From Candidatus Acidulodesulfobacterium acidiphilum (lineage in GTDB: Bacteria > SZUA-79 > Acidulodesulfobacterales > Acidulodesulfobacteraceae), in the NCBI GenBank assembly GCA_008534395.1, contig SHMQ01000010.1:1-64000 (forward strand): DNA of 64,000 nucleotides, read 5' to 3'. The position numbers and the translations under genes were made by a program. Positions within the stretch are counted from its first letter, which is position 1; each line of letters starts with the position of its first letter. This document shows, in pieces, positions 25,961 to 31,708 of the stretch. The notes under the pieces are model-generated. The model had not been told where the DNA came from. It saw only the letters and a program-made list of their open reading frames with translations, and made no database searches.

Positions 25961-28900
25961 GTAAGAATATTTCCCTGATTTATAAGGGATTGCGACGATG
26001 GCTCTGTCATTAAAGTTTCGTCTAAATTCTCGATAACTGTAAGAATATTTCCCTGATTTATAAGGGATTGCGACGTCTTCAGGTCGTCTTCGGTTAAACT
26101 AATGTTAAGTTTCGTAAGAATATTTCCCTGATTTATAAGGGATTGCGACTCAAACACTTCCCCTAGGGGAAGTGTTTCTTCATCTGGGGTAAGAATATTT
26201 CCCTGATTTATAAGGGATTGCGACAAACATAGAAAAAAACTCCTATGTCCCGCGTCCGGGATTAATGTAAGAATATTTCCCTGATTTATAAGGGATTGCG
26301 ACCATTCGTATAAGAATATGAGTTCATCATCTGGTAAGAGCGTAAGAATATTTCCCTGATTTATAAGGGATTGCGACGTTATATTATCAACCCTTAAAAT
26401 GGATTGCATAATATAATCTAAGTAAGAATATTTCCCTGATTTATAAGGGATTGCGACAATATACAATAATCACATTGTTCGGAATACATTAACCACATTT
26501 GGTAAGAATATTTCCCTGATTTATAAGGGATTGCGACAAATTTATAAGGCAAGCCTTATAAATTTTCAGTAATTGATTAAGTAAGAATATTTCCCTGATT
26601 TATAAGGGATTGCGACCAACCTTCGCAGGGTTGCCCATTATATGGACAGTTAACCTGCGTAAGAATATTTCCCTGATTTATAAGGGATTGCGACTTTAAC
26701 CCTTGCTTACCACTCCACTCAATACCTATATTGTAAGGTAAGAATATTTCCCTGATTTATAAGGGATTGCGACTTTGAATCTGATATATGTTTTCATCTA
26801 TCAGATTCATGCTATGTAAGAATATTTCCCTGATTTATAAGGGATTGCGACACCATAGGTAGAAATGGAGATATCTTTTATTAAACGTACCGTAAGAATA
26901 TTTCCCTGATTTATAAGGGATTGCGACTGACGAACGAACATAGTTCGTCATTGAAATATTCACAAGTAAGAATATTTCCCTGATTTATAAGGGATTGCGA
27001 CTAAGATCACCTCCTTATTGTCGTGTTAATTAACCATATGGTTGTAAGAATATTTCCCTGATTTATAAGGGATTGCGACAAAATAGTATAATATTTCCAC
27101 GACATAAGATCACCTCCTTATGTAAGAATATTTCCCTGATTTATAAGGGATTGCGACAAAAAACTTGATCCGAATTGATGCGGATATAATGAATACGTAA
27201 GAATATTTCCCTGATTTATAAGGGATTGCGACCATATTATATGTTAAAAATGGATTCACAGAAAGATTATCAGGGTAAGAATATTTCCCTGATTTATAAG
27301 GGATTGCGACTCCATTTTTGACTCCTTTTTAAATGTTAATTTAATATTGCGGGTAAGAATATTTCCCTGATTTATAAGGGATTGCGACCTTATATGTAAT
27401 ACTTCTGATGCCAGATAGTCTATATTAATGTAAGAATATTTCCCTGATTTATAAGGGATTGCGACTTTGCTATTCTTTTATCAACAGATAGTGCTGCAGA
27501 TATTAAAGAGTAAGAATATTTCCCTGATTTATAAGGGATTGCGACATTTCACATTTCTGTCCATACGGACAGCTTAACTGCCCATGTAAGAATATTTCCC
27601 TGATTTATAAGGGATTGCGACGGATTTGATTTGAATTTTGAAGGCACATTCTTAACGTATGGTAAGAATATTTCCCTGATTTATAAGGGATTGCGACTAG
27701 TGAATGCCTTTTTTTTCATTTTCCATTTTGTACCCCCGTAAGAATATTTCCCTGATTTATAAGGGATTGCGACCAAGTTCGGCAAGCTGTTTTTTTAAGG
27801 CTGCTATACGGATAGTAAGAATATTTCCCTGATTTATAAGGGATTGCGACTTTCTCCTATTTATATTTATTAAAAAAAGCCTGCTAACCTTTTTGTAAGA
27901 ATATTTCCCTGATTTATAAGGGATTGCGACGCAGGCAAATATCAACATTATCATTTTACCTCCTTTATTAAGTAAGAATATTTCCCTGATTTATAAGGGA
28001 TTGCGACGCATCTTTTCTTTCATACCATAAATCTATCTTCTTTATTCATTTTTTTTCACCTCCCCGTAAGAATATTTCCCTGATTTATAAGGGATTGCGA
28101 CGCATCTTTTCTTTCATAGTAGAAAAGATGTTTATATGATTGTAAGAATATTTCCCTGATTTATAAGGGATTGCGACTAACTACTATCATATTTTTCCTC
28201 TTTTTATTCTATTTTGTAAGAATATTTCCCTGATTTATAAGGGATTGCGACAGGTTAAAATCTATATACCCCCCGTTAAATTTATTTCGGCCAGGTAAGA
28301 ATATTTCCCTGATTTATAAGGGATTGCGACGGGAAAAAGAAATGATAACTACAAATCAACCTTTATCAAGTAAGAATATTTCCCTGATTTATAAGGGATT
28401 GCGACCAAGTCTTTCATTTCAAACCCTCCTTGAATTTTAAATTAATTAGTAAGAATATTTCCCTGATTTATAAGGGATTGCGACATATATAACAGATCAA
28501 AACACAAAATCCGTCCTTTAAAAATGTAAGAATATTTCCCTGATTTATAAGGGATTGCGACAGGTGTCAGATTTACAAATTTGGTTTTTTCCAAATTTGT
28601 AGTAAGAATATTTCCCTGATTTATAAGGGATTGCGACATGTTTTTAACCTTATTTCCTTTATTGTCCCTATCAGGGACAGTAAGAATATTTCCCTGATTT
28701 ATAAGGGATTGCGACACACGAACAAATTTTTTCTACAGAAAAAAGTTTTACCGAAGTGTAAGAATATTTCCCTGATTTATAAGGGATTGCGACTTGGACA
28801 TAGTAATAAATTTTTCTTAACATCTTTGCTCCTGTAAGAATATTTCCCTGATTTATAAGGGATTGCGACAGTTCTCTGGAGTTTTTTTACCATCCTTCTG

Positions 28901-31708
28901 GTGAAGGATGGTAAGAATATTTCCCTGATTTATAAGGGATTGCGACCCTCCTGTAAAGTTAAAAATTACGTTCGTCATATATATTACGTAAGAATATTTC
29001 CCTGATTTATAAGGGATTGCGACAAATGATTCTAACTCTGCTAACTGTCTTTTTAATGCGGATGTAAGAATATTTCCCTGATTTATAAGGGATTGCGACT
29101 TGTTTGCTAACTCCTCCGATAAAGTCGGTTCTACTAACAAGTAAGAATATTTCCCTGATTTATAAGGGATTGCGACATTGCCGTTGCACCGGTATTCGGT
29201 GCGACGACATCAGAACGGGTAAGAATATTTCCCTGATTTATAAGGGATTGCGACCTCCTATGTCCCGCGTCCGGGATTAATTTAAGTTATATATAGGGTA
29301 AGAATATTTCCCTGATTTATAAGGGATTGCGACCCTATCCTCGCGTCCGAGGGTTAACTTAAGTTATATATAGGGTAAGAATATTTCCCTGATTTATAAG
29401 GGATTGCGACTTATAGCGAAGTTATTTATTTTTCTTTTTTGTCCGCATTGGTAAGAATATTTCCCTGATTTATAAGGGATTGCGACGGTTACCATTCCAG
29501 ATTTGGGGGTTACCATTCCAGATTTGGGTAAGAATATTTCCCTGATTTATAAGGGATTGCGACTTAAAAACACACCCTCTTATCTCCGGAAGCCCCTTTA
29601 CCGTAAGAATATTTCCCTGATTTATAAGGGATTGCGACAGCTTAACTGCCCGTATGGGCAGTCTTTTTTCTTTTTGTCTTGTAAGAATATTTCCCTGATT
29701 TATAAGGGATTGCGACCTAAAAACTCGTTATATGCTTCCTTAAAATTCTCTATTCTGTAAGAATATTTCCCTGATTTATAAGGGATTGCGACAGTTTCAA
29801 AAACATTTCACCTTCACTTTCACAGTGAGAATGTAAGAATATTTCCCTGATTTATAAGGGATTGCGACGGATCGCCTTAACATCCGCATTATTTAATAAT
29901 TGCATAATGGGTAAGAATATTTCCCTGATTTATAAGGGATTGCGACGAGGTTTTGACAGTTAAACTTAATTTTTCTTCAATCTTTTTAGTAAGAATATTT
30001 CCCTGATTTATAAGGGATTGCGACCTTTGTTTCCTTTTTTTCCTTTTCCATTTTTACTCCTGTAAGAATATTTCCCTGATTTATAAGGGATTGCGACAAA
30101 TCTCTTGAGAAGTCATTTTAAAGCCTCCCTTGATATTTTTGTAAGAATATTTCCCTGATTTATAAGGGATTGCGACGACTCCACAATGAGTCATATATTT
30201 TTGCATTGTTATCGAGTAAGAATATTTCCCTGATTTATAAGGGATTGCGACATATAATACACTAACATTAGGATCTGCTTTTTTATGATTAGGTAAGAAT
30301 ATTTCCCTGATTTATAAGGGATTGCGACAATATATGATTTTTCATAGTGATAAACATTTTTAATTTTTGTAAGAATATTTCCCTGATTTATAAGGGATTG
30401 CGACTTAATTTTTCTTCTGTCATTTCCATTTTTTCTTCTCCTTTGGTAAGAATATTTCCCTGATTTATAAGGGATTGCGACAAACCTGCTTGCCCTTACT
30501 AAGATAATTTGCCATAGTGCTGTAAGAATATTTCCCTGATTTATAAGGGATTGCGACAATCATTAAACATTGTAAAAACCTGATCGCTTTGGATCCGTAA
30601 GAATATTTCCCTGATTTATAAGGGATTGCGACTGTCATCTTGCAAACGGATATAATGAATACCCGTTTTTTTTACGTGTAAGAATATTTCCCTGATTTAT
30701 AAGGGATTGCGACCTAAATATTCGGTATCGAAATACCTATCCAGAATATTTTCGGGTAAGAATATTTCCCTGATTTATAAGGGATTGCGACTTTTTTTTA
30801 CTTTTTCGGAGTTGGGGGCCACTTTTATCCGTAAGAATATTTCCCTGATTTATAAGGGATTGCGACGAAAATGAAATATTTTAAAATGAAATTTAAGATG
30901 ATTTAATTGGTAAGAATATTTCCCTGATTTATAAGGGATTGCGACTTTACTTCTAAAGCCTTATTATAATTTTCAAATACATCGTAAGAATATTTCCCTG
31001 ATTTATAAGGGATTGCGACACATAATACTGCTGGCACCCTTCGCAGGGTGCTTCCTGTAAGAATATTTCCCTGATTTATAAGGGATTGCGACGACTGCCC
31101 ATATGGGCAGCTTTTTTCATTTTCATTTTCCTGTAAGAATATTTCCCTGATTTATAAGGGATTGCGACTTCTTATCCATAGAAAATCTATAGATAAGAGT
31201 AGCATTATGGTAAGAATATTTCCCTGATTTATAAGGGATTGCGACAAAACAAGGTATGTTCTGTTGCTTTTTGGGTTATATGTTACGTAAGAATATTTCC
31301 CTGATTTATAATGGATTGCGACTTATTTTTTTTCATTTTAATCTCCTTTGCGGCTTTCGCCGCTGTTTGAATATTTCCCTGATTTATAATGGATTACGAC
31401 TGGGTTAAGTCCCGCAACGAGCGCAACCCTTACTTTTAGTATGAATATTTCCCGATTTATAATGGATTACGACCTTATTTCTACCGCTAAATTGAGCGGC
31501 AAAACTGTTTATCTCGTAGAATATTTCCAGATTTATTTGGGATTGCGACTAGGCTAACGCTAAATCTAACACTACAAGCGCAAGCCCTGCAAAGTGTAAG
31601 AATATTTCCCTGATTTATAAGGGATTGTGAGCTCCTTTTTTCGGTGTCCGTAGAAAATAAAATTATTAACATGTAAGAATATTTCTTTGATTTATACTGG
31701 ATTGCGAC
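25961..31708 (+). CRISPR. CRISPR array, 75 repeats and 74 spacers, type III
   Basis: The 36-nt repeat begins GTAAGAATATTTCCC, contains an imperfect hairpin (TCCCT, loop GATTTATA, AGGGA) and ends ATTGCGAC, the usual type III 8-nt crRNA handle. Repeats 1-69 look identical; repeats 70-75 (from 31287) are increasingly mutated, so the leader and newest spacers are at the left. Most spacers are 37-46 nt; spacer 27 (28008-28065) is 58 nt. Numbering spacers from the leader, at least twelve (for example 14, 15, 18, 26, 32, 37, 53, 54, 58, 70) carry, on the minus strand, a purine-rich ribosome site and an ATG. Many others are inverted repeats, and spacer 71 (31401-31438) is 16S rRNA sequence. Processing should be by Cas6 (53731-54765). 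Confidence 0.99.

Follow-up and report, generated by a model that had tools for sequence, protein, structure and literature searches.

Spacers spanning translation starts are over-represented in a type III-A CRISPR array beside a predicted reverse transcriptase-primase adaptation module

Where the spacers of reverse transcriptase (RT)-containing type III CRISPR arrays come from has been termed enigmatic (PMC5513706), and a locus of Candidatus Acidulodesulfobacterium acidiphilum poses this question anew. In the 64,000-nucleotide stretch analyzed here (contig SHMQ01000010.1, positions 1 to 64,000; the window), a CRISPR array lies between Csm effector genes and genes for Cas1, Cas2 and a fusion of an RT with an AEP primase-polymerase (RT-AEP). 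A first reading of the letters alone (the sequence-only reading) had claimed that the spacers are biased toward translation-initiation regions, antisense to the mRNA. Is this bias real, does it belong to type III systems in general, and does it arise when spacers are acquired or afterward? Spacers covering start and ribosome-binding regions are indeed over-represented, about two- to fourfold, and we infer that the bias arises mainly at acquisition.

Since the repeat ends in ATTGCGAC, which we take to be the 8-nucleotide (nt) type III 5' handle, the CRISPR RNA (crRNA) corresponds to the plus strand of the array. The host 16S rRNA ends in GGATCACCTCCTT, so that a Shine-Dalgarno (SD) consensus is appropriate, and two fixed rules were used: a looser one, with an SD 4-mer located 4 to 11 nt ahead of an ATG, and a stricter one, with an SD 5-mer (part of TAAGGAGGTGA, including at least two G's) at the same distance. 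Among the 74 spacers, the looser rule was satisfied by 17 on the minus strand (antisense to the crRNA) and by 3 on the plus strand, and the stricter rule by 11 and 0, respectively; an SD 6-mer, at any position, was present in 12, always on the minus strand. Dinucleotide shuffles yielded 5.8 (minus) and 1.4 (plus) under the looser rule and 2.1 and 0.4 under the stricter one, with a maximum of 7 on the minus strand for the stricter rule in 1,000 shuffles, and random 41-mers from phage contigs, both strands summed, predicted 6.1 and 2.5. The enrichment in the window is therefore approximately three- to fourfold. The list of start-type spacers in the sequence-only reading largely stood, as 11 of its 13 spacers (S14 and S15 having been one entry) satisfied the looser rule. 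The exceptions were S14, which has an SD but stops short of the ATG found in its overlapping neighbor S15, and S23, in which a GGGGG run replaces a canonical SD. Beyond that list, S67, a possible case, and S34 (with a TTG start) can be added, and S04, S13 and S66, which also satisfy the looser rule, are doubtful as starts.

AT-rich and purine-rich phage DNA with many short genes might yield SD-ATG pairs by chance; phage contigs are gene dense, and the looser motif is found, on either strand, in 6 to 8% of random host or phage 41-mers. We nevertheless consider an artifact of composition or gene density quite improbable, with observed counts above those of shuffles, random phage windows and control arrays of the same genomes, and with S70, S44 and S34 located at starts or in leaders on phage contigs.

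The same signature was found outside the window. Thirty related genomes were compared, the same set being retrieved at family, order and phylum level; 12 of them contained the repeat family, and additional arrays were taken from ten. In the 394 same-repeat spacers thus collected, the looser rule was satisfied by 62 antisense and 6 sense spacers and the stricter rule by 29 and 1. Under the looser rule, type I and other arrays from the same genomes gave 10 antisense and 12 sense cases (317 spacers), and four type III arrays without an RT-AEP match gave 4 and 1 (96 spacers); these four are associated with a different Cas1 and, in three cases, with Cas6, and a few phage contigs hit by spacers of the RT-associated family also have matches to some of theirs. 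When arrays were paired within genomes, the antisense start motif occurred in 16.3% versus 3.1% of spacers (Mantel-Haenszel odds ratio 4.8, p=1.7e-6) and the motif on either strand in 17.3% versus 6.2% (odds ratio 2.9, p=1.3e-4). The start bias follows this repeat family, not type III systems in general. RT-AEP was detected in six of the ten genomes that supplied sister arrays (47 antisense and 4 sense cases in 303 spacers).

To estimate the orientation of the spacers, a codon model was trained against phage genes, where it was right for 85% of 41-mers. The antisense fraction came to 0.91 in the window, 0.89 in the sister arrays, 0.79 in type III arrays lacking this RT and 0.55 in type I and other arrays. 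Given that the fraction is also high in non-RT type III arrays, antisense orientation is a type III feature, and it is expected in any functional type III system, where the crRNA needs to pair with mRNA. Start motifs in the opposite orientation are nearly absent, as the sequence-only reading had remarked (11 versus 0 under the stricter rule), but antisense orientation turned out to be a trait of nearly all spacers. Where targets of window and RT-family spacers could be mapped, 40 were antisense, 5 were sense and 8 were unassigned.

A search of the host genome returned good matches for S59 (100%), S45 (97.5%) and S71 (100%) only. The prophage-like region matched by S59 also carries helicase, RecT and transposase genes; S71, which matches 16S rRNA, belongs to the oldest part of the array, where the repeats are degenerate, and sense is the only tolerable direction for a spacer against the host's own rRNA. 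The remaining targets lie on small contigs of related metagenome-assembled genomes that carry phage DNA primase/helicase or DNA polymerase genes. The identified targets thus belong to DNA phages or prophages rather than to genes of the host. Regulation of host genes by crRNAs that block translation starts, which spacers antisense to start sites might suggest, was rejected as extremely improbable, since near-full host matches are confined to the prophage-like region (S59 and S45) and to rRNA in the sense orientation (S71). In GenBank phage records, only the 16S spacer was matched, among the matches listed, and scans of IMG/VR proteins brought up nothing closely related to the target phages.

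Several individual targets could be placed. S70 matches one gene in two related phages (G016:C80 and G014:C63), whose products are 65% identical and can be aligned from the first residue. On another phage contig (G007:C70), a single gene of 111 amino acids is matched by S10, S44 (with variants S43 and S04), S34 and S42; at its start, S34 agrees in 8 of 8 amino acids, with partial DNA similarity. A spacer homologous to S14 (95% over 37 nt, with different ends) is present on contig G005:C122, which was rejected as a protospacer contig because it is another array with an identical repeat, hence the related spacer. Its different ends suggest independent capture at one site; the search that found it was run with a subset in which start-type spacers were over-represented, such that its matches are not an unbiased sample. 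Mapping at the peptide level on open reading frames (ORFs) was sparse and noisy and gave no position profile.

Hairpins accompany the start motifs. A perfect stem of at least 7 bp was found in 18.9% of window spacers and 17.8% of sister spacers versus 6.4% of random phage 41-mers, with 11.5% in non-RT type III arrays and 2.2% in type I and other arrays, the spacers of which are shorter. In the cases of S70, S44 and S34, the hairpin exists in the phage sequence itself, and few of the hairpins among the spacers are terminator-like. Hairpin and start signals may in part be one signal, that of structured phage leaders. The hairpin excess, the single 16S spacer in the window array and the intermediate value of non-RT type III spacers would also suit a Cas1-Cas2 complex that favors single-stranded DNA hairpins or displaced strands near gene starts, the RT being incidental. 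A precedent is the type III-A system of Streptococcus thermophilus (Zhang et al. 2021, as summarized in PMC9048733), which, without an RT, prefers gene starts, hairpins and rRNA, with enrichment reported at rRNA and tRNA genes, at attenuator hairpins and 10 to 50 bp past start codons. According to that summary, however, the preference concerns the coding strand downstream of the ATG, in the host genome and plasmids, whereas the spacers described here are antisense, span both SD and ATG and target phages; moreover, no excess of starts is seen in the type III arrays of related genomes that lack this RT. We thus regard capture guided by DNA structure as unlikely, although this related, differently oriented preference means that the present bias is not categorically new.

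The account that we favor, and to which we assign about an even chance, is that the array reflects an acquisition bias of the RT/primase-Cas1-Cas2 module for leader and start zones of phage genes. The module, which resembles those designated CART-CAPP, would favor nucleic acid that stems from active phage genes, namely from their 5' leaders and start zones, and in particular from structured leaders and initiation regions; the captured material would probably be RNA that is copied into cDNA, and interference would afterward retain only those orientations in which the crRNA pairs with mRNA. That S71 has survived only in the harmless sense orientation agrees with such filtering, and a preference at the level of acquisition is the best fit, given that the bias is missing from arrays served by other modules, whether in these genomes or in related ones. 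RNA as the source of spacers is plausible in view of the RT. A more specific version, in which the module would draw its prespacers from the translation-initiation regions of phage mRNA, such as leader fragments that may be stabilized by hairpins or initiating ribosomes, is tentative and, in our judgment, somewhat doubtful.

The sequence-only reading had gone further and tied the bias to capture from mRNA 5' ends by the RT-AEP-Cas1-Cas2 module or, alternatively, to crRNAs that would block or cut mRNA at the start site. The link with the module was retained insofar as the bias tracks the repeat family that the module serves, recurs in sister arrays and is missing from controls. The idea that mRNA is captured precisely at its 5' end was rejected: ATG positions within spacers are distributed almost uniformly, some spacers lie further upstream in leaders (S10, -120 to -78), and gene interiors supply most spacers. 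With the ATG almost anywhere in the spacer, it is a zone that would be captured and not a fixed 5' end.

A number of observations weigh against the acquisition account. The bulk of the spacers derive from gene interiors; no RNA-only signature or junction was seen among the spacers, and their ends bear no strong CC or GG mark, leaving a simple CC-priming model unsupported. Protospacers mapped by DNA similarity, a small sample that favors conserved coding sequence, showed no significant clustering around starts: 7 of the 40 were no more than 25 nt away, against 9% expected. Counting either strand and shortening all spacers to 34 nt lowers the paired odds ratio to 2.0 (p=0.02); as the odds ratios shrink in this way, the enrichment proper in the sister arrays is about two- to threefold, and the remaining contrast is one of strand. 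Four genomes (G005, G006, G007 and G009) contain the repeat family and the same bias (15 antisense and 2 sense cases in 92 spacers) with RT-AEP undetected, perhaps due to assembly gaps. Finally, the start-proximal preference of the S. thermophilus system, on the opposite strand, arose without an RT (PMC9048733, in summary form).

Alternatively, crRNAs against leaders and ribosome-binding sites might protect better, because no elongating ribosomes are present there, because these regions appear early in transcription or because translation is blocked, and such spacers would then be kept by selection. Natural arrays are post-selection, and antisense orientation dominates here as it does in the type III systems of Thermus thermophilus, in which spacers are antisense to phage transcripts and, in the portion of that study bearing on the point, strand and positional biases are ascribed to early genes and selection (PMC7515739); the bias seen here concerns start codons. 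Selection would leave unexplained why the start bias is missing from type III arrays without this RT (4 and 1 of 96) despite their antisense fraction of 0.79 and why the repeat family retains start-type spacers next to non-Csm (RAMP/Cmr-type) effectors in G005 and G007. Start-type spacers are also spread along the arrays, with no obvious build-up at the old end, by eye only. Selection as the principal cause appears rather unlikely to us, and preferential acquisition is retained as the favored explanation.

The gene content of the locus is that of a type III-A (Csm) system with a CART-CAPP adaptation module. Csm1 to Csm5 (TIGR02578, TIGR01870, TIGR02582, TIGR01903 and TIGR01899) all exceed their NCBIfam cutoffs and, with the Card1-like gene, precede the array, which is followed by Cas_NE0113, cas1, cas2 and RT-AEP; Cas10/Csm1 together with Csm2 to Csm5, the handle-bearing repeat and crRNAs antisense to transcripts are features of type III-A. 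The fusion contains RVT_1 (1.5e-26) and AEP-TOTE (1.3e-30) domains, with discernible YADD and DxD-type motifs, and scores 315 bits (cutoff, 200) against the NCBIfam model for CRISPR-associated primase-polymerase type A1. Among its best matches to solved structures are group II intron RTs for the RT part and, for the primase part, the TPR_REGION/PrimPol-type chains 7nqf and 7nqd. RT-Cas1 type III systems, such as those of Marinomonas mediterranea and Fusicatenibacter saccharivorans, have reportedly been shown to acquire spacers from RNA with an RT fused to Cas1; RT-assisted adaptation in type III is common to both, while here Cas1 is a separate gene and the RT is fused to a primase instead. A review notes that RT-Cas1 systems take spacers from highly transcribed regions (PMC9048733, in brief). 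The closest architecture is CART-CAPP, described for Caloramator australicus and Geobacillus lituanicus, where, as here, an RT followed by a PrimPol domain is encoded beside cas1 and cas2 in a CRISPR locus; the parts of that work concerned are biochemical and report RT priming on DNA and RNA (PMC10415136), whereas our observation is a positional bias of natural spacers.

Some further features of the locus are listed in the table together with the elements discussed above. The cas1 frame is interrupted near 37334, in a short run of T, and homologues in related genomes are longer and uninterrupted; either an assembly error or a recent loss of adaptation would account for this. Repeats at the right-hand (old) end of the array are degenerate, which, together with the S27/S28 duplication, supports a leader at the left. 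S27 (58 nt) and S28 (28008-28141) share their first 17 nt, as though a single insertion had copied a repeat plus 17 nt twice. This looks like an irregular event, the trace of a second-strand integration that went off site. Outside the array, an exact solitary repeat directly follows an ORF (17484-17520), and degenerate ones are located at 32966-33004 and, directly after the Cas_NE0113 gene, at 35649-35679. Read antisense, S09 (26617-26658), S21 (27546-27585), S48 (29639-29680), S66 (31020-31056) and S67 (31093-31132) translate into versions of a single short peptide rich in cysteine (..CPYGQ..PCEGCQ..), such that one gene family seems to be targeted repeatedly; S16 (27158-27196), S23 (27698-27737) and S61 (30633-30677), likewise antisense, appear to encode the N-terminal region of one gene (GIHYIR / MENEKKGIHYIR..-like). 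S46 (29487-29527) is a near-perfect tandem repeat, with GGTTACCATTCCAGATTTGGG twice, for which no match was found.

Table. Positions in the window of the array, its spacers of interest and associated genes
Feature	Coordinates	Strand	Remarks
Type III-A effector genes Cas10/Csm1, Csm2, Csm3, Csm4, Csm5	18246..24280	+	NCBIfam
Card1-like CARF nuclease gene	24287..25696	+	
Putative leader	25697..25960	+	AT-rich; from Card1-like gene to first repeat
CRISPR array	25961..31708	+	75 repeats, 74 spacers of ~41 nt; repeat GTAAGAATATTTCCCTGATTTATAAGGGATTGCGAC
S04	26225-26266		leader hairpin in common with S43/S44
S10	26695..26737	-	5' leader of G007:C70 111-amino-acid gene, -120 to -78, 93%
S14 and S15	27002..27121	-	overlapping pieces of one start region (ATAAGGAGGTGATCTTATG)
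S18	27311..27352	-	start-type (AAAAAGGAGTCAAAAATG)
S23	27698..27737	-	start-type, G-run ahead of ATG; direct reading
S26	27931..27971	-	start-type (AAAGGAGGTAAAATG)
S27	28008..28065	-	start-type (GGGGAGGTGAAAAAAAATG)
S29	28178..28215	-	start-type
S32	28406..28448	-	start-type (AAGGAGGGTTTGAAATG)
S34	28562..28601	-	homologue of TTG-start region, G007:C70 111-amino-acid gene
S37	28794..28833	-	start-type
S42	29177..29218	-	interior of G007:C70 111-amino-acid gene; 81% DNA, 12/13 amino acids
S43 and S44	29255..29374	-	5' leader hairpin of G007:C70 111-amino-acid gene, ~-50 to -6
S45	29411..29450	-	97.5% match directly 3' of an ORF in the prophage-like region of S59
S53	30025..30061	-	start-type
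S54	30098..30140	-	start-type
S58	30405..30445	-	start-type; 78% to -16..+25 of a 75-amino-acid ORF, host prophage-like region
S59	30482..30521	-	100% to SSB gene, host prophage-like region (C2); crRNA antisense
S67	31093..31132	-	possible start-type (AGGAAAATGAAAATG)
S70	31323..31364	-	start-type; matches phage hairpin, SD and ATG
S71	31401..31438	+	100% host 16S rRNA; crRNA in rRNA sense, unable to pair
Cas_NE0113 / NCBIfam 'ring nuclease Csm6' family protein	34490..35635	+	
cas1	36525..37579	+	frame broken near 37334; ORFs 36525-37340 and 37337-37579
cas2	37620..37898	+	
RT + AEP primase-polymerase fusion	37933..40989	+	CART-CAPP type

In summary, a start signature that is strand specific, replicated in sister arrays and missing in neighboring arrays provides a testable rule for spacer capture or guide retention, and it suggests translation-initiation regions as favored targets of RNA-targeting immunity. 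Should the module indeed sample initiation regions of phage mRNA, natural arrays would record the sites at which ribosomes load onto invading transcripts.

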